Source: Isosphaeraceae bacterium (lineage in GTDB: Bacteria; Planctomycetota; Planctomycetia; Isosphaerales; Isosphaeraceae). From it: a DNA stretch of 64,000 bases. Below the pieces are notes generated by a model. The model was given only the letters and a program-made list of their open reading frames with translations. It was not told where the DNA came from and searched no databases. The position numbers and the translations under genes are program-made. Below, one piece after another: positions 22,200-41,250 of the stretch; position 1 is the stretch's first letter, and each line of letters starts with the position of its first letter. Location of the stretch: NCBI GenBank assembly GCA_025356435.1, contig JANXSY010000198.1, positions 1 through 64,000 of the forward strand. The letters run 5' to 3'.

Positions 22200-22292
22200 C
22201 GTAGGGGCCCACGCGCCATTTCGACGCAAACATCATCGATTCTCGACCGAGGCTCGTCCCATCATTCCGCGTAAGGCGGATCTGCCCCTACG
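22200..22292. repeat. Small inverted-repeat element between genes
   Basis: CGTAGGGGC (22200-22208) is inverted as GCCCCTACG (22284-22292), with further partial match (GCC at 22215 and GGC at 22275). The right arm supplies the TAG stop codon of ferrochelatase. The layout resembles a short dispersed or MITE-like element; only one copy is in this window. Confidence 0.4.
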
Positions 22293-23346
22293 AAGGTCGC
22301 GACGCCGATCGATCTGCCATGACAGGGCGCAGCGAGGGCAGGCAACAATCGACCGGGCAGACGTCGTGGCTCGGGCCGAATTCGCCGATTGAGCGGCGGT
22401 CTCGTTCACCCTCCACTCGCTCGACGATCAGTTCGCCGAGCATCGAGACGAAGAGGGGATGCGTGCCGACGGTTGCCGACCGGACCATGTTGAGGCCGAT
22501 CGCCTCGCAGGCATGGCGGGCCTCGTCGTCGAGGTCATACATCACTTCCATGTGGTCGGAGAGGAAGCCGACGGGGTGGACGACGGCGTCGGTCACACCT
22601 TGCTCTTTGATCGTCTTGAGATAGTCAACGATATCGGGTTCGAGCCAGGGATCAGTCGGCCTGCCGCTGCGGGATTGGTAGACGAGTCGCCAGCGATCGG
22701 GGGTGACGTGGAGTGACTCGGCCACCAGGCGGCAGGTCTCGGTCAACTGAGCGACATATCTACAATTGTTTGCCATCGAGTCAGGAATGCTGTGCGCGGT
22801 GAAGGCGAGCAGGGTCGAATCGCGACGGTCTTGGGGGATCAGATCGAGCGCGGCACGGACGCGGTCGGAATTCGCGGCGATGAAGTCGGGATGGTTGTAG
22901 AAGACCCGCATCTTATCGACGATCGGGGCCGACTCCCCCACCGACTCGCGGGCCTTGGCGATATCCTCGCGATACTGGCGACAGCTCGAATACGAACTAT
23001 ACGCCGCGAGGACAACACCCAAGGCGTGCCGAACACCATCGGCGGTCATCTTCGCCATCGTATCGGCGAGCATTGGCTGCCAGTTGCGGTTTCCCCAGTA
23101 GATTGGCAGGTCGATCCCTCGTCGTCGCAACTCGGGCTCGAGAACGTCGATCAGGTCGCGGACCTGGGCATTGATCGGGCTGACGCCATCAAAATGATAG
23201 TAATGCTCGGCCACTTCGAGCATCCGCTCACGCGGGATGTTGCGACCTCGCAAAACGTTTTCCAGGAACGGGATCACGTCGTCTCGCCCCTCGGGACCGC
23301 CGAAGCCGACGATGAGGATGGCATCATGGGGAACTGAGTCGGTCAT
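22288..23346 (-). CDS. hemH: Ferrochelatase, coproporphyrin-type features
   Basis: Inserts iron into a porphyrin late in haem synthesis. The 352-residue protein has the N-terminal GFGGPEGRDDVIPFL segment, the catalytic His in FTAHSIPDSM and the acidic helix HPVGFLSDHMEVMYDLDDEA with the catalytic Glu. YSSCRQYRE and YQSRSGRPTDPWLEPD are close to actinobacterial coproporphyrin III ferrochelatases. A Cys in SSCRQ and a C-terminal CPVDCC could hold a [2Fe-2S] cluster as in some actinobacterial enzymes, an inference only. It lies on the minus strand 94 bp from the upstream PfkB gene. No other haem gene is near. Confidence 0.9.
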   Translation of the reverse strand: MTDSVPHDAILIVGFGGPEGRDDVIPFLENVLRGRNIPRERMLEVAEHYYHFDGVSPINAQVRDLIDVLEPELRRRGIDLPIYWGNRNWQPMLADTMAKMTADGVRHALGVVLAAYSSYSSCRQYREDIAKARESVGESAPIVDKMRVFYNHPDFIAANSDRVRAALDLIPQDRRDSTLLAFTAHSIPDSMANNCRYVAQLTETCRLVAESLHVTPDRWRLVYQSRSGRPTDPWLEPDIVDYLKTIKEQGVTDAVVHPVGFLSDHMEVMYDLDDEARHACEAIGLNMVRSATVGTHPLFVSMLGELIVERVEGERDRRSIGEFGPSHDVCPVDCCLPSLRPVMADRSASRPS

Positions 23347-23440: not shown

Positions 23441-24574
23441 TCACCCTTCCGATCCCGGCAACGTCGCCGCGAAATCAGCCAGGTCGGTCAGGGTCGGGCT
23501 CTCGGCGCTTCGGACATAATAGCCGCTCGTCGTCACTCCCGCGCAGAGGCTCTCTGCGAGACCGAGACCGAGGATGCGGCCGAGGCAGAAGCCCGCGTTG
23601 AAGTGGTCGCCCGCCCCGGTGCTGATCTTGGGATGACGGATGAACGGTCCCTGGAAATGGGCCGATTCGGTCGCGGTCGCGGCGGCGGCGGTCCGTCGGG
23701 GGTGGATCACCGCGCAGCCGATTTCGAGTTCTTCGCGGATCGATGTAGCTAACTCGGAGACGTCTGACTCGGGATCGGTCGGAATCCGCAGCTTCAAGAC
23801 CGACGCGACCTGGAGCGCCTCCTTGAGATTCATGCCGAGGATCAGATTGATCCGCGACTCGAATTCGGCCAGCCCTTTGAGCGCGGCGAAGAGGTCGGTC
23901 GGGGTCCGCTTCTCGGGGTCGGCTAGATCGATAAACAGGGTGCCCTTATGGCGGGATTCCGTCGAAAAGACGTTGTCCAAGAGATGCCGCCAGATCGAGC
24001 CCATCCCCGAGAGCATCGTCCAGTTGACCATGCCGATCAGGGTCGCCCCGCCGAAGGTCGTTCGCAGGGTGTCGAGGCCGACTCGGGCGACGAGGTTGTC
24101 CCAGTTCACGTCGTCAAGCGTGCCGTATTTGCCGAGCATGATCTTGCCGTCTTGGAACTCGAGCGCATCGGTCTGGCCTGACTCGGCGACGCTGATGACC
24201 CTCGCCCGCTTGCTGAAGTCGCGGAAGACGGGATGGATCTCGGGATAGCCGAGGCTGCCGATATAAGTGACGCCCAGCCCGAGCCGGGCCAGAGCATTCG
24301 CCATGATCGGGCCGTTGCCGCCGAGCTTGCTCTGCTTGACGATGAGTTCATAGTTGCTCGACTCCCCCGCCGCCGCGCGAATTTTATCGCCCATCGCGGC
24401 GATCGTGGGGACCGCGTCATATTGGCCATCCGCGTGTCGTTTGTCGACGACCGCGATGATATGGTCGACGAACCCGTCGAAGCCGACAACGCTCGACATC
24501 GACGCCAATCCGCCGCCAAAAGCTCGGAGCCCTTCGGCCGTCGAATCGCAAATCTCTTCGCGCGATCGAGTCAT
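23441..24574 (-). CDS. PfkB-family carbohydrate kinase
   Basis: Ribokinase-fold kinase of 377 residues. GFDGFVDHIIAVVDKR near residue 31 is the start of the sugar-binding half, KLGGNGPIMANALARLG is the first glycine motif, and STGAGDHFNAGFCLGRILG is the C-terminal ATP/catalytic motif with the catalytic Asp. It is distinct from the KDG kinase at 8.3-9.4 kb (canonical GAGD motif here). The phosphorylated sugar cannot be deduced; the gene is divergent from the azurin-fusion operon. Confidence 0.8.
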   Translation of the reverse strand: MTRSREEICDSTAEGLRAFGGGLASMSSVVGFDGFVDHIIAVVDKRHADGQYDAVPTIAAMGDKIRAAAGESSNYELIVKQSKLGGNGPIMANALARLGLGVTYIGSLGYPEIHPVFRDFSKRARVISVAESGQTDALEFQDGKIMLGKYGTLDDVNWDNLVARVGLDTLRTTFGGATLIGMVNWTMLSGMGSIWRHLLDNVFSTESRHKGTLFIDLADPEKRTPTDLFAALKGLAEFESRINLILGMNLKEALQVASVLKLRIPTDPESDVSELATSIREELEIGCAVIHPRRTAAAATATESAHFQGPFIRHPKISTGAGDHFNAGFCLGRILGLGLAESLCAGVTTSGYYVRSAESPTLTDLADFAATLPGSEG

Positions 24575-24915
24575 CTCGACGATCCCCCGTACGGCCTGAG
24601 CCCACGAAATCCTACTTTGACCTCGGAATGATTGAGGATACCGGATCGGCTCGACGGATGCGTCCCTCCGACCGCGTAAACGGTTCGCAATTTTCTATCG
24701 ATGGGGACTCGAATCTGGGTCGATCCTGCCTTACGATTCGAGGAGGCGATGTCGTGCCCTCGTCTGCGAGCCACATTTTGATGCAGGGAAATCACCTCAC
24801 CGGGGTGGGGGAGTCGGGTATCTTGGCATTGAAACGGGTATGATCCGGAATGCCGCTCGACCCGATCGAGCCACCCGCCTGCCGGTCCAACCATCCGTCC
24901 CGGGATCAGCACCCC
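24575..24915. other. Divergent intergenic region
   Basis: Separates the PfkB gene (minus) from the fusion-protein operon (plus) and must hold both promoters. A TATGAT (24839-24844) could be a -10 for the operon, but no matching -35 is seen. The plus-strand frame is open from 24850, so some of this may be coding if an upstream ATG is used. No RNA gene found. Confidence 0.35.
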
Positions 24916-27900
24916 ATGCCCAGCCTACCCTCAGGGGGTCGTCGGCCCCTCGCCTGCACGCTAATCGCCCTCGGCCTCTTGATGTCGACCTCGGCCCGCG
25001 CCGAGGCCCCGCCCAAAATCTTCGCGAGAGACAACCTCGTCGCCTGGTGCATCGTCCCGTTCGACTCAAAGAAGCGCGGGCCTGAGGAACGCGCGGCGAT
25101 GCTCGAACGGCTCGGATTCAAGCACTTCGCCTACGACTGGCGGGCCGAGCACATCCCCACATTTGGCGCCGAAATCAATGCGCTCAAGCGACATAACATC
25201 GCGCTCGACGCCTTCTGGGTCGCCCCCGGCGAGTTGAATCGCGAGTCGCGAATCATCCTCGACGTGCTCAAACGTCATCAAATCAAGGCGCAACTCTGGG
25301 TCTTGCTCGATTTCGGGGCCGATCGCGTCTCGGGCGCAGAGCAGCAACGACGAGTTGACGCCGCAGTCGCGAAGCTCAGGCCGCTCGCCGATGAAGCCAG
25401 GGCGATCGGTTGCACCCTCGCGCTCTACAACCACGGCGCATGGTTCGGCGAGCCCGAGAACCAGATCGCCATCATCGAAGCGCTGAAAACGAAGGGCGCG
25501 ACGAACGTCGGCATGGTCTACAACCTCCATCACGGTCACGACCACCTCAACCGGTTTTCCGCGCTCCTCGCCAAGATGAAGCCCTATCTGCTCGCCCTGA
25601 ACCTGAACGGCATGGAGCCTGACGGCGATAAGGTCGGTAGGAAGATTCTCCCGCTCGGCCAGGGTTCACTCGACCTCGGCCTGCTCCGCACGATCGTTGA
25701 CAGCGGCTATTCCGGACCGATCGGCATCCTCGGCCATACCGACGACGACGCCGAAGAACGGCTCCGCGACAACCTCGACGGCCTCGACTGGCTCCTCCCC
25801 CAGCTCATCGGCAAGCCTGCCGGACCCAAGCCCAAACCTCGCACCCAAACGCCGCCCGCGAAGGCCGCCGAGGCCCGCCCGTATCGACCGGAGGTGGTCG
25901 CCCAACTCGTCGCCGAGGCGAAAGCGAACGGCAACCCCTCGCGCGGGGCCGAAGTCTTCGCCGCCGCCCAGTTCGGCTGCCTCTCGTGCCACAAAGTCGG
26001 CCAACTCGGCGGCACGGTCGGCCCTGACCTCTCCGAAGTCGGCAAGTGCCTGACTCCCGAGTTGATCGTTGAGGCCGTGCTCTGGCCCAAGCGGCAGGTC
26101 ATCCCTGCCTATAACGCTGTCGCGGTGGCGACGACCGACGGCCGGGTCATCCAGGGCTATAAGGCCCTCGAAACCAAGGAAAAGATCATCATCCACGAGG
26201 CGACGACGCGCAAGGCGTTCGAGTTGCCTCGTCCGGCGATCGAAGAGATGCACGAGATCGGCACCCTCATGCCCGAAGGTCTCGCCGAGTCGATGAGCAC
26301 CGACCAGCGCAGAGACCTTGTCTGCTTCCTGATCGCTCTCGGCCAATCGACCAAAATAAATACCGACGTGTTGCTGACTCATGGCCACTCAACATCGACA
26401 TTTCCTTACAATCTCAAGCCGTTACGTCTTCAAGACTATACCGACTGGCAACATCATGTGAACCGCGATCGGGTCTATGATTTCTACGAGAAAGAGGCTT
26501 TTTTTTACGCCAACCAGGCAACGGTGCCCTCTCTGCTTCCTCCGCATCCCGGCCTCGATAATGGAAAATATGGCCACTGGGGCAACCAGAACGAAGACTT
26601 CTGGAAGGACGACCGCTGGAACAAGGCTGACCTCGGCTCGATCATGTCCGGCGTCTTCCGAGGCGCTGGAGTCACGGTGCCGAAGGGTGTCTGCGTCCGT
26701 CTCGGCGACCTGAGCGTCTGCTTCAATCCCGAAACGCTCTGTTATGAAGCGCTCTGGAAGGGTGGGTTCGTCAAGTTCTCCGCCGTGCGACACGGCTTCA
26801 TGGAAGGGCTGCTCCTCGACGGCACCGCCCTGCCCCGTCCCGAAGGGAAAAAGCCCGACGCGCCGATCGTCTATCACGGCTTCTATCGACACGGCAACGA
26901 CGTGGTCTTTTCCTATCGGATCGGCGACGTCGAGATGCTCGACTCCCCGCGCTCTGAGGGAGGCAAGTTCGTCCGCGTCGTCGGCCCCGCCAGGACGCAT
27001 CCGCTGGCCGACCGGACGCGTGGCGGGCCGGTCCGCTGGCCACAGGTGCTTGCGACTCGCGGGAGCCTGGGATCGGGCAAGCCGTATGCGATCGACACGA
27101 TCGAGCCGCCATTCACGAACCCGTGGAACGTCCCCCTGTTCATCGGCGATCACGACTTTCTCGCCGACGGCACCGCGATGGTCTGCACGATGCAGGGCGA
27201 CGTCTGGCGGGTCGAGGGTCTGGACGCAGGCTTGGCCCAGGTCCGCTGGAAACGGTTCGCGACCGGCCTGCATCAGGCGCTCGGGTTGGTGGTCCATGAC
27301 GACAAGATCTATGTCATCGGACGCGACCAGATCACGCGACTCCATGATCTCAACGGCGACGGCGAGGCCGACTATCACGAATGCATCTCAAATGCCTATG
27401 AGACTTCGACATCCGGTCACGACTTCGTCTGCGGCCTCCAGCGCGACCCGCAAGGAAATTTCTACACCGCGTCGGGCAAGCAGGGCATCCTTCGCATCCA
27501 TCCCGACGGCCGGACAGTCGACGTGATCGCGACCGGTTTCCGCAACGCCGACGGCCTTAGCCTTATGCCCGACGGGACGATCACGGTGCCGAGTTCCGAA
27601 GGCGAGTGGACAATGGCCTCGCAAATCGCCGAGATCCGCGAGGGGGGCCACTACGGCTACGGCGGCCCAAAGAACGGACAGGTCCCTGACCTCCCCCTCG
27701 TCTATCTGCCGCGCGGTATCGACAATTCGAGTGGTGCTCAGACTTACATATCCAGCGATCGATGGGGTCCGCTCAAGGGTCTGTCTGTCCATTTTTCGTA
27801 TGGCGCGGGCACGCACTTTCTCTTGCTCCGCGATCGGGTCGACGGCCAGCCCCAGGGAGCCGTTGTCCCCTTGCCGGGCGACTTCCGTTCGGGGGCGCAT

Positions 27901-28851
27901 CGAGGCCGGTTCAACCCGAAAGATGGCCAACTCTATGTCTCGGGCATGGGCGGTTGGGGCACCTACACCGCGCTTGACGGCTGCTTCCAACGGGTCCGCT
28001 ATACCGGCAATCCGGTCCAGCTTCCGGTCGCGTTCCATGCCCATGAAAACGGCGTGATGGTGACGTTCTCGCGACCTATTGACAAGGCGATTTTGGACCG
28101 GCCCGCGAGTCGATTCGCGCAGGCTTGGAACTATCACTACGGCCCTGCCTATGGGTCGCCCGAACTCTCTCCGCGCCATCCCAGGACGCCGGGGCACGAC
28201 CCGATTGCGATCCGCTCAGCCACGGTGCTCGATGACGGCCGGACGGTCTTCCTTGAAATGCCCGACTTGCAGCCGGTGAATCAGTTGCAGGTCCACCTTT
28301 GCGTTGATGACGGCCCGCCTCGCGAACTCTTCGCGACGATCCACAAGCTCGCCGCTCCCTTCACAGGCTTCGCGGGATATCGCCCGAGCCAAAAACGGGT
28401 TGCCGCGCATCCGATCCTCTCCGACCTCGCCAGCGCGAAGGCGTCGCTGCCGAACCCCTGGCGGATCAAGGTGCCGAACGCGCGGGCCGTCACCATTAAG
28501 GCGGGGAAGAATCTGAGCTTTAACGTCACCTCGTTCAAGGTCCGCGCAGGTGAGCCGATCCGCCTCAATTTCAGCAATCCAGACGCGGTCCCGCACAACT
28601 GGGTGCTCATCAAACCAGGGACGCTCGCGAAAGTCGGAGACCTTTCCAACCGGATCATCGCTGACCCTGAAGCGGTCTCACGCCATTATGTGCCCAAGAC
28701 TGAGGACGTGATTGTCTGGACCGATATCGTGGCGTCGGGAGATCAAATGAACATTTCTTTTAACGCTCCGAAGCAGCCCGGTCGCTATCCCTATCTGTGT
28801 ACCTTCCCGGGCCACTGGATGGTCATGAACGGTGTGATGATCGTCGAGTGA
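24916..28851 (+). CDS. Exported TIM-barrel / cytochrome c / propeller / azurin fusion protein
   Basis: A 1311-residue secreted protein with several domains in order: signal peptide (1-35), a sugar-phosphate-isomerase-like TIM barrel (about 40-300), a Pro/Lys linker, a c-type cytochrome domain with CLSCH (355-359), a region like DUF6797 (about 490-700), a glucose/sorbosone-dehydrogenase-like propeller (about 728-1050), and a C-terminal cupredoxin (about 1188-1311) with His in VPHNW (1227) and CTFPGHWMVM (C1295, H1300, M1304), exactly the azurin spacing C-x4-H-x3-M. Likely an extracytoplasmic redox or carbohydrate enzyme that passes electrons from haem to copper. ATG 24916 is chosen for the signal peptide; 24850 is also open. 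First gene of a three-gene operon. Confidence 0.8.
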   Translation: MPSLPSGGRRPLACTLIALGLLMSTSARAEAPPKIFARDNLVAWCIVPFDSKKRGPEERAAMLERLGFKHFAYDWRAEHIPTFGAEINALKRHNIALDAFWVAPGELNRESRIILDVLKRHQIKAQLWVLLDFGADRVSGAEQQRRVDAAVAKLRPLADEARAIGCTLALYNHGAWFGEPENQIAIIEALKTKGATNVGMVYNLHHGHDHLNRFSALLAKMKPYLLALNLNGMEPDGDKVGRKILPLGQGSLDLGLLRTIVDSGYSGPIGILGHTDDDAEERLRDNLDGLDWLLPQLIGKPAGPKPKPRTQTPPAKAAEARPYRPEVVAQLVAEAKANGNPSRGAEVFAAAQFGCLSCHKVGQLGGTVGPDLSEVGKCLTPELIVEAVLWPKRQVIPAYNAVAVATTDGRVIQGYKALETKEKIIIHEATTRKAFELPRPAIEEMHEIGTLMPEGLAESMSTDQRRDLVCFLIALGQSTKINTDVLLTHGHSTSTFPYNLKPLRLQDYTDWQHHVNRDRVYDFYEKEAFFYANQATVPSLLPPHPGLDNGKYGHWGNQNEDFWKDDRWNKADLGSIMSGVFRGAGVTVPKGVCVRLGDLSVCFNPETLCYEALWKGGFVKFSAVRHGFMEGLLLDGTALPRPEGKKPDAPIVYHGFYRHGNDVVFSYRIGDVEMLDSPRSEGGKFVRVVGPARTHPLADRTRGGPVRWPQVLATRGSLGSGKPYAIDTIEPPFTNPWNVPLFIGDHDFLADGTAMVCTMQGDVWRVEGLDAGLAQVRWKRFATGLHQALGLVVHDDKIYVIGRDQITRLHDLNGDGEADYHECISNAYETSTSGHDFVCGLQRDPQGNFYTASGKQGILRIHPDGRTVDVIATGFRNADGLSLMPDGTITVPSSEGEWTMASQIAEIREGGHYGYGGPKNGQVPDLPLVYLPRGIDNSSGAQTYISSDRWGPLKGLSVHFSYGAGTHFLLLRDRVDGQPQGAVVPLPGDFRSGAHRGRFNPKDGQLYVSGMGGWGTYTALDGCFQRVRYTGNPVQLPVAFHAHENGVMVTFSRPIDKAILDRPASRFAQAWNYHYGPAYGSPELSPRHPRTPGHDPIAIRSATVLDDGRTVFLEMPDLQPVNQLQVHLCVDDGPPRELFATIHKLAAPFTGFAGYRPSQKRVAAHPILSDLASAKASLPNPWRIKVPNARAVTIKAGKNLSFNVTSFKVRAGEPIRLNFSNPDAVPHNWVLIKPGTLAKVGDLSNRIIADPEAVSRHYVPKTEDVIVWTDIVASGDQMNISFNAPKQPGRYPYLCTFPGHWMVMNGVMIVE

Positions 28852-28869: not shown

Positions 28870-31737
28870 ATGATTCACAGTCTCAGCGTGTTCGCGGTGC
28901 TGATGGTGGCGGGTGCCCCGACCGACGAGGCATTCTTCGAGTCGAAGGTCCGCCCCGTGCTGGCGGGGACGTGCGTGAAGTGTCACGGGCCGGGCAAAGC
29001 GTCCGGTGGGCTCCGACTTGACTCGCGTGCCGCGCTGATCCGGGGCGGCAAGAGCGGTCGCGTGGTTGACCTTGATGATCCTTCGGAAAGCCTTCTGCTC
29101 CAGGCCGTCCGACGCGCCGAGGATGTGAAGGCGATGCCGCCCGACAAGACGCTCTCGCCGTCGGCCGTTGAGGACCTGAGGCGATGGATCGAATCGGGAG
29201 CCCCCTGGCCTTCAGCCGTCGCGACGATCCGATCGCCGCGACACTGGGCGTTTGAGCCTGTAAACGCCGTGGCCGCGCCGGTCGTCCCCGGCCTGGCAAC
29301 GATCGACGCCTTTCTCGCCGTCGACCAGCGTAAAAAGGGACTGACACCAGCGGGGCCGACCGACAAGCGGACGCTGATCCGCCGGGCAACGTTTGACCTC
29401 TTGGGCTTGCCGCCTTCGCCCGCAGAGGTCGAAAACTTCCTCAGAGACTCATCACCGAAGGCGTTCGAGGCGGTGATCAATCGCTTGCTCGCCTCGCCCC
29501 ACTATGGAGAGAAATGGGGTCGGTTCTGGCTCGACGTGGCGCACTATGCCGACACGGCGGGCGAGACAACCGACATGCCCGTGCCCGACGCCTGGCGGTA
29601 TCGCAACTATGTGATCGACGCCTTCAACGCCGACAAACCCTATGACCAGTTCCTTCGCGAACAGGTCGCGGGCGATATCCTCGCCGCCGAACTCCCGAGT
29701 AACGCCCCGACCGGCCGCCACGCCGAAATGGTCACGGCCACCGGCTATCTCGCGATCGCCCGCCGATTTGGGTTCGACACGACGCCCGACCACTATCTCA
29801 CGATCGACGACACGATCGACACGTTCGGCAAGAGCATCCTCGGCCTGACGATCGGCTGCGCTCGTTGCCACGATCACAAATATGATCCAGTGAGTACCAA
29901 AGACTATTACGCGCTCTTCGGCATCTTCGACAGCACGCGCTATCCGTTCAGCGGGTGCGAGAAAGACCGCGTCCCCAAGGACAACGTCTCCTTGCTCTCG
30001 GCCGACGAACAACGTCAGCGGGTCGAGCCGCTGAAGGCTAAACTCGCGGCGGCTGAGACGTCGTTCGTATCGGCTGAATCTCGCGTGAAAGCCCTTGCCG
30101 ATCGGCCGCAGACGACCCTCGCATCAGGCGACATTCCCAATGGAGGGACGCAGCCGATCGCGGCTCGCGCGAAGGTCAAGAAGGGGGAGATGATCCGCCT
30201 GACGGTGGCTCCAAAGGTGGGACACGGGGCCGACTCGACCCTCGTCGACCTCAAGCTGACCGAGCAAGGTGGCGCGGGGCGGGTCTGGGATGTGACTCGT
30301 GACATGTTGGCCGACGTCTACCAGGGCGGCACCGGATTTCAGCACGACGCCCAGGGCGACAAGGCCGTGTGGCACCTCTGGGACGGGGCCGCGACGCCGA
30401 GGCTCTTGACCGAGTTCGAGAAGGACGCCGAACAATCGAAGGGCCTGCTCTGCTGGAAAGGGGCCGAGGCGACGCCTTGTGCTTTCGTGAACATCAACGA
30501 AGGCCCGATCGCGTTCGTCACCGTAAAGCAGCCCGCGCGATCGTTCGCGCTCCATCCCGGAGCGAAAGGCGCGGTCGTCGTCGCGTGGGAGAGTCCGATC
30601 GATGGCGAAGTCGCGATCGCCGGGCGGGTTCAAGATATCGACGGTTCGGGCGGCGATGGCGTGGCATGGTCGATCGCGCAAGGGCCGGGACTCGGCCGCG
30701 TGCTGGGCGAGACAGTCGGCGCGAGCCAGGCCCTCAGTCGGGCAAGGCGAGAGATCGAGTCGTTTGCGATCCCCGTCGCCTATGCCGTGGCGGAAGGGAA
30801 GCCTCACAACACGCGCGTCTACATCAAAGGGGACCCAGCCACGCTCGGCCCCGAGGTGCCAAGGCGATTCGTCGACGTACTGGGCGGACAGGTGGTCTCC
30901 TCAGGCAGCGGCAGACGCGAGCTGGCGAATTGGATCTCTGACCCCAAAAACCCGCTCACAGCGCGAGTGATTGTGAACCGCGTCTGGCAAGGGCATTTCG
31001 GTAACGGCTTGGTGCGCACACCCGACAACTTCGGCGTCAGAGGCGAACTGCCATCGAACCCCGAATTGCTCGACTGGCTCGCCGCGCGGTTCGTTGCCGA
31101 TGGCTGGTCGATCAAGGCGATACATCGGTTGGTCATGTCGACCGACGCATATCGACGCGCGACGATCAACGATGATCACAATGCGATGATCGATCCGGAT
31201 AACGTCACGCAATGGCGGTTCAATCGGCGTCGCTTGATGGCCGAAGAGATCCGCGACGCGATGCTCGTCGTAAGCGGAGACCTCGACGTGACGCCCGGTG
31301 AGGCTCACCCGTTCCCGCCATCGAAAACCTGGACATTCACCCAACATAATCCGTTCACGGCCGTCTACGACCACAATCACCGAAGTGTTTACTTGATGAC
31401 CCAGCGGATCAAGCGACATCCATTTCTGGCGCTTTTTGATGGGCCTGACCCCAATTCGAGTGTCGGCAGACGCGACTCGACCACCGTGCCGACGCAGGCT
31501 CTTTTCTTCCTCAACGACCCGTTCGTCCACGCCCGCGCACAGAGCCTCGCGAAGAGACTTTCAGCGATTCCGAACGAGACCGATCGGCTCGATCGGGCGT
31601 GGCAATTGCTGTTCGGAAGGCCGCCGACCGAGGGGGAAATCGCGATCGCTTCGCGTTATCTTAGGTCGAACGGGTCGGACATGGCGGGCTGGCTACGAGT
31701 CATGCTGGCGAGCAATGAATTTACTTACGTCAAATAA
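28870..31737 (+). CDS. PSCyt1-DUF1549-DUF1553 secreted cytochrome-type protein
   Basis: A 955-residue planctomycete-type exported protein. After a signal peptide (1-16) comes a PSCyt1 cytochrome-like domain with CVKCH (35-39) and MPPDKTLSP, then DUF1549/PSCyt2 (about 150-365, with SPHYGEKWGRFWLDVAHYADT and CARCHDHKYDP), an inserted beta-rich region (about 410-650) and DUF1553/PSD1 (about 675-930, with NPLTARVIVNRVWQGHFG and STTVPTQALFFLND). It starts 18 bp after the fusion gene with GAGGGAGA as ribosome site, and is followed 13 bp later by a DUF1501 gene, the standard pairing. Function of these pairs is not established; polysaccharide degradation and electron transfer have been suggested. Confidence 0.9.
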   Translation: MIHSLSVFAVLMVAGAPTDEAFFESKVRPVLAGTCVKCHGPGKASGGLRLDSRAALIRGGKSGRVVDLDDPSESLLLQAVRRAEDVKAMPPDKTLSPSAVEDLRRWIESGAPWPSAVATIRSPRHWAFEPVNAVAAPVVPGLATIDAFLAVDQRKKGLTPAGPTDKRTLIRRATFDLLGLPPSPAEVENFLRDSSPKAFEAVINRLLASPHYGEKWGRFWLDVAHYADTAGETTDMPVPDAWRYRNYVIDAFNADKPYDQFLREQVAGDILAAELPSNAPTGRHAEMVTATGYLAIARRFGFDTTPDHYLTIDDTIDTFGKSILGLTIGCARCHDHKYDPVSTKDYYALFGIFDSTRYPFSGCEKDRVPKDNVSLLSADEQRQRVEPLKAKLAAAETSFVSAESRVKALADRPQTTLASGDIPNGGTQPIAARAKVKKGEMIRLTVAPKVGHGADSTLVDLKLTEQGGAGRVWDVTRDMLADVYQGGTGFQHDAQGDKAVWHLWDGAATPRLLTEFEKDAEQSKGLLCWKGAEATPCAFVNINEGPIAFVTVKQPARSFALHPGAKGAVVVAWESPIDGEVAIAGRVQDIDGSGGDGVAWSIAQGPGLGRVLGETVGASQALSRARREIESFAIPVAYAVAEGKPHNTRVYIKGDPATLGPEVPRRFVDVLGGQVVSSGSGRRELANWISDPKNPLTARVIVNRVWQGHFGNGLVRTPDNFGVRGELPSNPELLDWLAARFVADGWSIKAIHRLVMSTDAYRRATINDDHNAMIDPDNVTQWRFNRRRLMAEEIRDAMLVVSGDLDVTPGEAHPFPPSKTWTFTQHNPFTAVYDHNHRSVYLMTQRIKRHPFLALFDGPDPNSSVGRRDSTTVPTQALFFLNDPFVHARAQSLAKRLSAIPNETDRLDRAWQLLFGRPPTEGEIAIASRYLRSNGSDMAGWLRVMLASNEFTYVK

Positions 31738-31750
31738 ACGGGGAGTACAG

Positions 31751-33169
31751 ATGTCTGCCAACCCATCGCCCTGGAATCGTCGCGGGTTCGTACGATCGGC
31801 GGTCGCGGGCACGGCGCTCTTTCCCGCGATCCTCTCTGAACTGATGGCGGAAGAGGACAAGGCCCGATCCTCGTCAGACCCTCTCGCCGCGAAGCCGCCG
31901 CACTTCGCCGCGAGAGCGAAGAACGTCATTTTCCTCTTCATGAGTGGCGGCGTCTCGCATGTCGATTCGTTTGATCCTAAGCCCCGGCTGTTCGCCGACC
32001 ACGGCAAGCAGGTGACGCTCGACCACCCCGAGACGCGGAACCGGCCGGGCTATGAAAAGCTGTTTCTCAAACGTCCCCAGTGGGATTTCGCGAAGCACGG
32101 CAAGTGCGGGACCGAGGTCAGCACGCTCTTCCCCCACATGGCGGGATGCGTCGATGATCTGGCGGTAATCCGGTCGATGTATGCCGACCATTCGAATCAT
32201 TACAACGCCACGCTGGGTATGCACACCGGGTCGTTCAACCAGGCCCGGCCAAGCATTGGTTCATGGGTAAGTTATGGGCTGGGGACGACGAACCGGAACC
32301 TGCCTTCGTTCATGGTGATCGCGCCCCAATCTCCTTATGCGGGGGGACAGGTCTGGGCGTCGGATTTTCTGCCCGGCAGCCATCAAGGGACGTTGGTCAC
32401 GCCCGGTCCCGAGCCGATGCGGAACATCCGCCCGTTGATCGGATCGACGCAGCAACGAAGGGAGCTTGACGCGCTCGCCGAACTCAATGGCGACCATCTC
32501 GCGCGGAGCGGCCACGCCCCGGAACTCGAAGCCCGCATCCGCAGCTTTGAGACCGCCTTCGGCATGCAGACCGCAGCGCCCGACGCCTTCGATCTATCTA
32601 AAGAAACCGACGAGACCCACGCCCTCTACGGCCTCGAACGGGGCAGCACAAAGGGGTTCGCCTGGCAGTGCCTCGCAGCGCGTCGGCTCGTCGAGCGCGG
32701 GGTCCGGTTCGTCGAGTTGATCGACGTGGGCGCTTCAAACAATTGGGATGCCCACGGCGACATGATCTCGCAGCACGCGCCGCTGGCGAAGAACGTCGAT
32801 AAGCCGATCGCCGGGCTGATTCAAGACCTGAAACGGCGGGGCCTGCTCGATGAGACGCTGGTTGTCTGGACAACCGAATTCGGCCGGACCCCCTTCAACA
32901 ACACGGCCGAAGCCAAGGGCCGCGAGCACCACCCCTGGGCCTTCGCGAGCTGGCTCGCCGGGGCGAAGGTCAAGGGAGGCTCGGTCTACGGCACGACCGA
33001 CGATCACGGCATCAGGGTCGCGTCTGATGGCGTCCATGTCCACGACCTTCACGCGACGATCCTTCACCTGATGGGCCTTGACCACACAAGGTTGACGTAT
33101 CGGCATGCGGGTCGAGACTATCGGCTGACGGATGTTGAGGGCAAGGTCGTGCGCCCGTTGATCGGGTGA
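31751..33169 (+). CDS. Tat-exported DUF1501 protein
   Basis: A 472-residue protein with a twin-arginine signal (NRRGFVRSAVAGTALFPAIL) and an alkaline-phosphatase/sulfatase-like fold: IFLFMSGGVSHVDSFDPKP near residue 58 holds the first metal-site Asp, DDLAVIRSMYADHSNHYNA follows, and WTTEFGRTPFNN and GREHHPWAFASWLAG carry later metal-site Asp/His-type positions. No sulfatase Cys/Ser cassette is seen, so catalytic activity is open. The frame runs far upstream, overlapping the previous gene, but ATG 31751 has GGGGAG and the Tat signal. Paired with the preceding PSCyt/PSD1 gene, as in most planctomycete genomes. Confidence 0.9.
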   Translation: MSANPSPWNRRGFVRSAVAGTALFPAILSELMAEEDKARSSSDPLAAKPPHFAARAKNVIFLFMSGGVSHVDSFDPKPRLFADHGKQVTLDHPETRNRPGYEKLFLKRPQWDFAKHGKCGTEVSTLFPHMAGCVDDLAVIRSMYADHSNHYNATLGMHTGSFNQARPSIGSWVSYGLGTTNRNLPSFMVIAPQSPYAGGQVWASDFLPGSHQGTLVTPGPEPMRNIRPLIGSTQQRRELDALAELNGDHLARSGHAPELEARIRSFETAFGMQTAAPDAFDLSKETDETHALYGLERGSTKGFAWQCLAARRLVERGVRFVELIDVGASNNWDAHGDMISQHAPLAKNVDKPIAGLIQDLKRRGLLDETLVVWTTEFGRTPFNNTAEAKGREHHPWAFASWLAGAKVKGGSVYGTTDDHGIRVASDGVHVHDLHATILHLMGLDHTRLTYRHAGRDYRLTDVEGKVVRPLIG

Positions 33170-38778: not shown

Positions 38779-41250
38779 ATGAAGACCCTCCGTCGAGCCG
38801 CCGGACCGATTGTCCTCGGCGTCATGGCCCTCTTGTCGATGGCGACGTCCGGGGCTGTCTCTGCCGCCGATTCTCCCAAAGACATCGTGGGTACGCCCGC
38901 TACGGTCGAGATCACGCCCAAAGATTCGACGCTGGTCGGCCGCAGGGCCACCCGGCAGTTGATCGTCTCGGCGAAATATGCGGACGGGAATGAGCGAGAC
39001 CTCACCCGAGCGGTCGAGTGGGTCAGCCTCGACCCGACGATTGCGACCGTTTCAACGCGAGGCCAGGTCGTCCCCAAGGCGAACGGCGTCGCGACGATCG
39101 TTGCCCGCAGGGGGAGCGTTGAGGCGAAGACGACGGTCATCGTGTCGAAAACTGAGGCCGTCACCCCGGTGAGTTTCAAGCTCGACGTGATCCCCTCGTT
39201 CAGCCAGGCGGGATGCAATATGGGGGCCTGCCACGGCACCCCTACCGGCAAGGGCGGATTCAAGCTCAGCCTCCGAGGCTATTTGCCTGACCAGGATTAC
39301 GTCACGCTCAGCCGAGACGCCTCCGGCCGACGGATCAACCCGCTCGCGGCCGAGACGAGCATGATCCTCACCAAGCCGCTCGGCGAGATCGCCCATGAGG
39401 GTGGGCTCCGGCTCACGCGAACTTCGAAGAGTTACGAATATCTCCTCGACTGGGTCCGCGAGGGGGCGAAGGCCGACGTCAACCCGCCTACCGCTGTCCG
39501 CCTGGAGATCCTGCCCGGGACTCGCGTCTTGAACGCACCCGCGAAGACCCAGCAGGCTGCCGTGATCGCCTATTATTCGGACGGGTCGAGCCGCGACGTG
39601 ACGCCGACCTGTTATTACAACTCGTCGAACCCCGAGATCGCTGATGTTGACGCCGACGGCTATGTCACCTTCAAGAATCGTGGCGAAGTCGCGGTGATCG
39701 CGCATTATCTTGACCTGGTCGCCAACGTCCGACTGACGCATCTGGTCGAAGTTCCCGGCTTCAAGCTGGCCGAGGTGCCGGGCGACAACGTGATCGACAA
39801 GGCAGTCTTCGCCAAGCTGAACCGGATGCGGGTCAGCCCGTCCGACCCCTGCACCGACACCGAGTTTGTCCGCCGCGCCACACTCGACGCCATCGGTATC
39901 TTGCCGACCGCTGAGGAGGTCAAATCGTTCCTGAACGACCCGAGCAAAGATCGCCGGGCCAGGCTCGTCGACCGCCTGCTCGTTCGGCCAGAGTTCTATG
40001 ACTACTGGACCCTCAAGTTCGCCGACATCCTCCGCGCCAACGGCCGATTGATCCAATCCAAAGGGGCGAACGGCTTCACGCGATGGATCAAGACAAACCT
40101 CGAACGCAACACGCCGATGGACGAGTTCGTTCGGGAGTTGCTGACCGCTGAAGGGTCGTCGTACAGCAACCCCGCCGCGAACTATTACCGGATCAGCCGA
40201 GACCCTGAGAACTCGGTCGAGACCACCGCCCAACTCTTCCTCGGCGTGCGGATTCAGTGTGCCAAGTGCCACAACCATCCGTTTGAGCGCTGGACGCAGG
40301 ACGACTATTACGGGTTTGCCGCCTTCTTCTCACGAGTCCGCCAGAAGAAAGGCCCCTTGCCTGACGACGAGGTGATCTACGCCGCCGACGCGGGCGAGGT
40401 CAACCAGCCCCGCACCGGCCAGACGATGAAGCCCAAGGCGCTCGGCGGCCCGGTGCTCGATGACGCCAAGGTGCCCGACCGCCGCGTCCGACTCGCCTCG
40501 TGGCTCACCAGCGGCAGCAATCCGTTCTTCGCCAAGAGCCTCGTCAACCGGATCTGGTATCACCTGATCGGCCGAGGGATCGTCGAGCCGGTCGACGACT
40601 TCCGCGACTCCAATCCCGCTTCGAACGACGAGCTTCTCAATGGCCTGACCGCCGAGTTCGTGAAGTCAAAGTTCGACCTGAAATCGCTGATCCGCGCCAT
40701 CCTCGTCAGCCGGACCTATGCCCTGAGCGCCCGGACCAACGAGCTGAACGCCGACGACTCGATCTACTTCTCGCACGCCTACACCAAGCTCCTCCCCGCC
40801 GAAGTGCTCCTCGACGCCATCTCGACCGTTACCGGCACGACGACCACGTTCGAGGGCCTACCTCCCGGCACCCGCGCCACCCAGATCCTCGATGGCAAGA
40901 TGGAAAACCCGTTCCTCAAGACCTTCGGCCGTCCCGCCCGCGAGCTTGCCTGTGAGTGCGAGCGCGAGACCGACTCGAACCTCTCGCAGGCCCTCCAACT
41001 CATCGGCGGGGCGACGGTCAACGGTAAGCTCCGAGACGACGGCGGCCGGATGGCCACGCTCTCAAAGAGCCCGAAGACTCCCGAGGAGATCACCCGAGAG
41101 CTCTATGTCGTGGCCCTTAGCCGAGAGCCGAATTCGACTGAAGTCGCCGCCGCGGTGAAGCACATCACCATCGGCAAAGACCGTCGCCAGGCGGTCGAAG
41201 ACCTCGGTTGGGTGCTCATCAACTCGAAGGAATTCCTCTTCCGCCATTGA
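38779..41250 (+). CDS. Ig-like (Big_2) plus DUF1549/DUF1553 secreted protein
   Basis: An 823-residue exported protein. Signal peptide (1-30), a first bacterial Ig-like domain (about 40-125), a haem-like segment CNMGACHG (Cys-x4-CysHis form), a second Ig-like domain (about 240-330), DUF1549/PSCyt2 (about 340-520, with CAKCHNHPFERW) and DUF1553/PSD1 (about 560-815, with NPFFAKSLVNRIWYHLIGRG and FLKTFGRPARELACECER). Ribosome site GAGGAG seven bases upstream. Unlike the copy at 28.9 kb it has no DUF1501 gene after it, so it belongs to the Ig-containing subgroup and may act with a partner elsewhere. Confidence 0.88.
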   Translation: MKTLRRAAGPIVLGVMALLSMATSGAVSAADSPKDIVGTPATVEITPKDSTLVGRRATRQLIVSAKYADGNERDLTRAVEWVSLDPTIATVSTRGQVVPKANGVATIVARRGSVEAKTTVIVSKTEAVTPVSFKLDVIPSFSQAGCNMGACHGTPTGKGGFKLSLRGYLPDQDYVTLSRDASGRRINPLAAETSMILTKPLGEIAHEGGLRLTRTSKSYEYLLDWVREGAKADVNPPTAVRLEILPGTRVLNAPAKTQQAAVIAYYSDGSSRDVTPTCYYNSSNPEIADVDADGYVTFKNRGEVAVIAHYLDLVANVRLTHLVEVPGFKLAEVPGDNVIDKAVFAKLNRMRVSPSDPCTDTEFVRRATLDAIGILPTAEEVKSFLNDPSKDRRARLVDRLLVRPEFYDYWTLKFADILRANGRLIQSKGANGFTRWIKTNLERNTPMDEFVRELLTAEGSSYSNPAANYYRISRDPENSVETTAQLFLGVRIQCAKCHNHPFERWTQDDYYGFAAFFSRVRQKKGPLPDDEVIYAADAGEVNQPRTGQTMKPKALGGPVLDDAKVPDRRVRLASWLTSGSNPFFAKSLVNRIWYHLIGRGIVEPVDDFRDSNPASNDELLNGLTAEFVKSKFDLKSLIRAILVSRTYALSARTNELNADDSIYFSHAYTKLLPAEVLLDAISTVTGTTTTFEGLPPGTRATQILDGKMENPFLKTFGRPARELACECERETDSNLSQALQLIGGATVNGKLRDDGGRMATLSKSPKTPEEITRELYVVALSREPNSTEVAAAVKHITIGKDRRQAVEDLGWVLINSKEFLFRH

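Follow-up and report, generated by a model that had tools for sequence, protein, structure and literature searches.

A predicted exported redox protein joining a TIM barrel, a haem domain, a beta-propeller and a blue copper domain in Planctomycetota and Verrucomicrobiota

This report concerns one gene in a 64,000-nucleotide stretch of DNA, referred to here as the window, from an Isosphaeraceae bacterium of the phylum Planctomycetota (contig JANXSY010000198.1 of GenBank assembly GCA_025356435.1). The gene encodes an exported polypeptide in which a xylose-isomerase-like TIM barrel, a c-type haem domain, a beta-propeller and a blue copper domain are fused; the fusion is genuine, and the family to which it belongs is widespread in Planctomycetota and Verrucomicrobiota and unstudied. 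The copper site is intact in every complete homologue, and the haem domain is found in only some of the lineages. We tentatively suggest, as a reading that is quite possible, that these are modular carbohydrate-handling redox proteins in which the propeller oxidises the substrate and the electrons leave via the copper.

A preliminary description of the same DNA had proposed that a single exported polypeptide joins TIM barrel, cytochrome c, propeller and azurin domains, and both domain profiles and structure models agree with it. AP_endonuc_2, TIGR02603, DUF6797 and Copper-bind all score above their cut-offs, and the barrel and the propeller were modelled. The DUF6797 segment and the fourth copper ligand are absent from that description and were found here.

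Architecture and metal centres

The open reading frame can be read from either of two starts (Table 1). The one at 24916 is preferred over the one at 24850 because a clean signal peptide, better than that of the longer product, begins there (Met23 of the longer frame); the signal peptide and cleavage site read in the translation are MPSLPSGGRRPLACTLIALGLLMSTSARA followed, after the cleavage point, by EA. Homologues align from about residue 27-57 of the 1333-residue frame onward. All residue numbers in the text refer to this longer frame, and subtracting 22 gives the numbering of the preliminary description. The order of the domains is signal peptide, AP_endonuc_2 TIM barrel, TIGR02603 haem domain, DUF6797, propeller and cupredoxin (residues 1214-1333). 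We found no papers on TIGR02603 or on DUF6797 in the literature.

Table 1. Positions in the window of the gene, its domains and the neighbouring genes mentioned in the text.
Feature	Positions	Strand	Remarks
Open reading frame from first ATG	24850-28851	+	1333 amino acids
Whole gene, preferred start	24916-28851	+	1311 amino acids; signal peptide position, homologue alignment
Predicted Sec signal peptide	24916-25002	+	AxA cleavage (ARA/EA), read directly in the translation
Xylose-isomerase-like TIM barrel (AP_endonuc_2)	25012-25848	+	Profile and model (predicted local distance difference test score, pLDDT, 93.8); canonical metal ligands lost
TIGR02603 c-type haem domain	25930-26331	+	CLSCH 25978-25992; candidate distal Met474 26269-26271
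DUF6797	26716-26943	+	49.2 bits, cut-off 24.9
Beta-propeller like that of soluble glucose dehydrogenase (sGDH)	27082-28224	+	Approximate limits; invariant His857 (27418-27420), Arg898-Asn899 (27541-27546)
Auracyanin/azurin-type cupredoxin	28489-28848	+	Ligands His1249 (28594), Cys1317 (28798), His1322 (28813), Met1326 (28825)
Ferrochelatase	22288-23346		After ketohexokinase
Prokaryotic ketohexokinase (Khk)	23441-24574	-	204 bits; divergent, about 280 bp upstream of the gene
PSCyt1-PSCyt2-PSD1 protein	28870-31737	+	Directly downstream of the gene
DUF1501 domain protein	31916-33160	+	Listed frame begins at 31436, overlapping the PSD1 gene; true start probably later
PSCyt2-PSD1 protein with Big_2 domain	38779-41250	+	Elsewhere in the window

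The C-terminal domain matches the Copper-bind profile with 42.2 bits (cut-off 21.2). The best PDB sequence match is auracyanin A (2aan, E=5.6e-15), auracyanin B and azurins also match, and the cupredoxin model superposes on 2aan with a template modelling (TM) score of 0.85. The ligand pattern of a type 1 (blue) copper site, His ... Cys-x4-His-x3-Met, is complete. The three copper residues named in the preliminary description (C1295, H1300 and M1304) are correct and correspond to 1317, 1322 and 1326; the fourth ligand, unnamed there, is His1249 (His 1227 in that numbering). All four are unchanged across a first alignment of 43 homologues and intact in all 72 complete rows, from two phyla, of a larger alignment of 74, the other two rows being cut by contig ends. 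The domain thus resembles auracyanin and azurin in its fold and its full His-Cys-His-Met ligand set, but it differs in being one part of a protein of about 1300 residues and in falling below the cut-off of the azurin equivalog TIGR02695 (41.1 against 105.1 bits); auracyanin is the nearer relative. The window's own genome has only three Copper-bind domains, all in long frames (1335, 1667 and 827 amino acids), and no stand-alone blue copper protein of the Copper-bind Pfam family was seen in it.

The haem domain scores 78.0 bits with the TIGR02603 profile (cut-off 68.15), and its match among PDB sequences is the diheme protein 7zs0. Its CLSCH motif (residues 377-381) provides the ligand set Cys377, Cys380 and His381, and these residues, together with Met474, which is probably the sixth ligand, are unchanged in all 21 of the haem-bearing rows. 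Among the 43 aligned homologues, 21 have a CxxCH motif and 22 do not, and in the latter a Laminin_G_3 domain occupies the place of the haem domain. The haem domain is absent from the Verrucomicrobiota branch and from the planctomycetal protein L121. On a quick tree of the propeller and copper domain, the haem label requires two changes and the Laminin_G_3 label seven. Laminin_G_3 as a one-for-one substitute for the haem is ruled out, since several Planctomycetota carry both. The preliminary description had staked its proposal on conserved haem and copper ligands; across the family this proved right for the copper and wrong for the haem. The best reading of the aligned sequences is that the haem would be a lineage-specific extra and the copper the constant.

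Distribution and exchange of domains

One scan of a genome collection returned 58 loci, mostly full-length relatives, in Planctomycetota and Verrucomicrobiota. Orthologues are present in 31 of the 45 genomes of the window's own family, mostly as a single copy, and weaker paralogues (about 350-515 bits) also exist. Of the 142 genomes of a verrucomicrobial order, 86 contain a match with E<=1e-150, and some of these matches may not be orthologues. A chimera or misassembly is ruled out by orthologues in many independent genomes, several of them on chromosome-sized contigs, and a chance origin of the fusion is ruled out because it is conserved over 74 homologues in two phyla.

The arrangement of the domains displays a variety of patterns. 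The window protein and most of its family have the order barrel-haem-propeller-copper, and Pirellulaceae and other Planctomycetota have barrel-Laminin_G_3-haem-propeller-copper. Barrel-Laminin_G_3-propeller-copper is the order in Verrucomicrobiota (among the 30 best loci from the verrucomicrobial order, 29 show it, none with CxxCH) and in the planctomycetal L117 and L121. Barrel-propeller-copper occurs in L227. The haem-propeller-copper unit stands without a barrel in five loci (L016, L017, L154, L178 and L180), has the barrel as a neighbouring gene in L022 and L091, and has the barrel moved to the C terminus in L059. Altogether, Laminin_G_3 is present in 32 of the 72 classifiable homologues. 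Eight Hydrogenedentota genomes (L186-L195) encode the same barrel fused to a propeller of the pyrroloquinoline quinone (PQQ)-dehydrogenase type, seven of them with Laminin_G_3 between the two; in L062 the propeller scores 466 bits with PF01011 and is followed by a CBB3-type cytochrome c. All of the parts are of known kinds, and as far as our searches show, a constant propeller-copper pair with exchangeable haem, Laminin_G_3 and barrel has not been described in the literature.

Two loci depart from these patterns. At L167:6205-10352 the barrel and the haem-propeller-copper part lie in two overlapping frames, either a split gene or a frameshift, and L185:413-4414 is a paralogue with two CxxCH motifs, DUF6797, Laminin_G_3 and a propeller and with no copper motif.

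We file the family as a variant within the exported propeller/haem proteins of the Planctomycetota-Verrucomicrobiota-Chlamydiota (PVC) type. The PVC-type haem-binding CxxCH proteins (TIGR02604 propeller, TIGR02603 haem, DUF7133) likewise come from the same phyla, are exported, have several domains and combine an sGDH-like propeller with TIGR02603. However, the window protein has the haem before the propeller, a barrel and DUF6797, reaches only 28.6 of the 122.2 bits required by TIGR02604, and belongs to a family in which the haem is dispensable and the copper is not. The window's own genome has about 20 TIGR02604-type proteins. One of the PVC-type proteins in this genome also bears an azurin-type domain: L182:2825-7780 (minus strand, contig C271) is a second copper-haem propeller fusion of 1652 residues, in the order GDSL esterase, TIGR02604/DUF7133 propeller, HEAT, F5/8 type C, azurin-type copper domain and TIGR02603 haem.

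A survey of azurins reported a single hit in 2200 Planctomycetes genomes (PMC8779525). The fused blue copper domains found here in 31 of the 45 genomes of one planctomycetal family suggest that they were missed by that survey. The family offers a tractable entry for experiments, as one gene, usually in one copy per genome, with the blue copper as a built-in optical reporter. Haem-bearing and haem-free forms occur naturally, and a relative that has exchanged domains carries a PQQ-dehydrogenase-type propeller.

Barrel, propeller and predicted function

The barrel matches AP_endonuc_2 (PF01261) with 34.3 bits (cut-off 31.1), and its model bears out the TIM-barrel fold. The nearest structures to the model are sugar epimerases, including the 3-keto-glucoside 4-epimerase YcjR. 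The sugar isomerase of the preliminary description therefore applies to the fold alone, because the canonical metal ligands are replaced: aligned to 3wqo, the E/D/H/E positions hold Y193, N225, N251/N253 and Leu. Y193, N194, H195, N225, H228 and H230 vary little or not at all. Compared with the xylose-isomerase-like epimerases (UlaE, D-tagatose 3-epimerase, YcjR and IolI), the window barrel shares the fold and the above-cut-off PF01261 match but differs in the loss of the four metal ligands, in its export and in its fusion to redox domains. In a Lewinellaceae member (Bacteroidota, L061:4789-10136), a stand-alone barrel is flanked by one gene for an SSF symporter and one for a GlcNAc 2-epimerase-like protein, with a GH26 gene upstream.

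By sequence, the propeller has a weak likeness to DUF7133/TIGR02604 and matches no family above cut-off. A structure model was needed because searching PDB profiles with the alignment of the propeller returned NHL-type blades and nothing else. The AlphaFold model has pLDDT values mostly above 90 in this part (predicted TM score of the whole model 0.77), and its best Foldseek match is the sGDH-fold protein 2ism (TM 0.71 on target, 3.6 A). In the model, then, the sorbosone-dehydrogenase likeness proposed earlier lies in the fold of the propeller, not in its sequence. His857, Arg898 and Asn899 are present in 74 of 74 homologues, as are E917, R955, D958 and H981. The first three coincide in position with the motifs 'H..GG...FGPDG' and 'G.RNP.GL' of PQQ sugar dehydrogenases, and going by motif order we take them to be the counterparts of the His and Arg-Asn that sGDH uses in catalysis. 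When the propeller profile was compared with GSDH sequences by hhalign, the RN motifs were paired weakly (E=0.001, probability only 21%).

These observations would fit a protein in which the barrel, and Laminin_G_3 where present, binds or presents a sugar, a polyol or a glycan end, the sGDH-fold propeller oxidises the bound carbohydrate, and the type 1 copper centre at the C terminus passes the electrons on to an acceptor in solution or in the membrane. In the Planctomycetota, the c-type haem between barrel and propeller may be an extra relay or an alternative exit, and the Verrucomicrobiota would do without it. The fusion of the same barrel to a PQQ-dehydrogenase propeller in Hydrogenedentota supports a role in the oxidation of sugars or polyols. 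A built-in path from substrate to haem to copper, as proposed in the preliminary description, is not a general property of the family, because the haem, unlike the copper, is not constant, as Verrucomicrobiota and the planctomycetal L121 illustrate. Such a path is possible in the window protein itself, in which both centres are complete. Of the extracytoplasmic sugar oxidation system imagined there, an exported redox fusion of the sugar-oxidation type survives; the general haem route and the conserved operon do not.

Several points weigh against our reading. Besides the replaced metal ligands of the barrel, the propeller has no PF07995 match and falls far below the TIGR02604 cut-off, the window protein has other residues where sGDH holds the PQQ calcium with Gly-Pro, and just 22 of 43 homologues have R1018, the best fit to the PQQ-carboxylate arginine pair (RxR) in the second half. 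No conserved operon names a substrate. Moreover, 12 carrier genomes gave no pqqE above cut-off and no pqqC, with the pqqC control silent everywhere; this test of PQQ synthesis is weak because of the silent control and because the L062 genome, with its PQQ-dehydrogenase-type propeller, likewise lacks a match to either gene. An exogenous supply of PQQ is possible. The preliminary description had regarded the lack of any dehydrogenase-like active site as fatal, and half of one, the His/Arg-Asn half of the PQQ signature, is conserved. The window protein thus resembles the soluble PQQ glucose, aldose and sorbosone dehydrogenases (PF07995; 2ism, 1cru) in fold and in the His and Arg-Asn positions, and differs in having no PF07995 match, in not keeping RxR and Gly-Pro and in its fused electron carriers. 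The family may operate in the manner of a PQQ-type sugar dehydrogenase that contains its own electron carriers, but it lies outside PF07995.

The same losses can be explained otherwise. Barrel and propeller could be degenerate, non-catalytic carbohydrate binders, and the protein could serve as an anchored carrier of electrons, or as a hub by which other PVC haem proteins (PSCyt proteins, for example) dock to a glycan. The metal ligands missing from the barrel across the aligned set, the missing half of the PQQ-site signature, the many homologues with Laminin_G_3 and the numerous TIGR02604-type proteins of the same genome would all suit such a hub, which we nevertheless consider somewhat unlikely: the polar, pocket-type residues of the barrel (Y193, N194, H195 and H228) are highly conserved, and the seven propeller residues kept in every homologue exceed what binding alone should need. 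Six-bladed propellers are functionally diverse, and the propeller might instead be a metal- or acid-base-dependent hydrolase, lyase or lactonase, with the barrel performing a non-redox step on the same sugar and copper and haem serving, for example, respiration or copper handling. The incomplete PQQ signature, the PQQ synthesis genes not found in the 12 carriers (with the limit of the control given above) and the GDSL esterase that heads the second fusion, L182, are in line with this. It is unlikely, as the propeller is fused to type 1 copper in all 72 complete rows and as the propeller-copper pair is exchanged for a PQQ-dehydrogenase-type propeller in Hydrogenedentota.

Also unlikely is an extracytoplasmic carbohydrate oxidase or oxidative lyase that works without PQQ, in which a new His-rich pocket in the barrel would replace the metal site, barrel and propeller would act in tandem on one substrate, and electrons would pass to the built-in copper; if true, such chemistry would be new to descriptions of PVC bacteria. 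Many Foldseek rows are nitrous oxide reductases with the same domain order, which suggests a respiratory reductase of that kind, with propeller and cupredoxin. This reading is extremely improbable, for the matches are topological only (root-mean-square deviation >23 A, TM <0.3), and we regard it as refuted by the copper ligands, which form a single-Cys type 1 site (C-x4-H-x3-M) and not a two-Cys CuA site.

Gene neighbourhood

The preliminary description placed the gene in an operon with PSCyt1/PSD1 and DUF1501 genes. This arrangement is local and says little about function. In a sample of 30 neighbourhoods (the window and L153-L181 of its own family, some truncated), a PSD1 gene follows downstream in the same orientation, at no more than 1.7 kb, in only six (the window, L160, L157, L156, L173 and L175), and no other neighbour is conserved beside the gene in these 30. 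The 5.6 Mb genome contains 51 DUF1501 matches, or roughly one every 110 kb, and some co-location is therefore expected by chance. We found no papers on DUF1501 and DUF1553 together.

The planctomycete proteins with PSCyt1-3 and PSD1-5 domains have c-type haem fused to carbohydrate-binding domains; a role with carbohydrates has been suggested for them, and their functions were called unknown (PMC5615132). They resemble the window protein in coming from the same phyla and in being modular fusions of haem and carbohydrate-binding domains. They differ from it in their haem and catalytic-type domains, and the adjacency is not conserved. A DUF6807 gene recurs beside members of the family in Verrucomicrobiota, at L027:6991-7992 and at five other loci.

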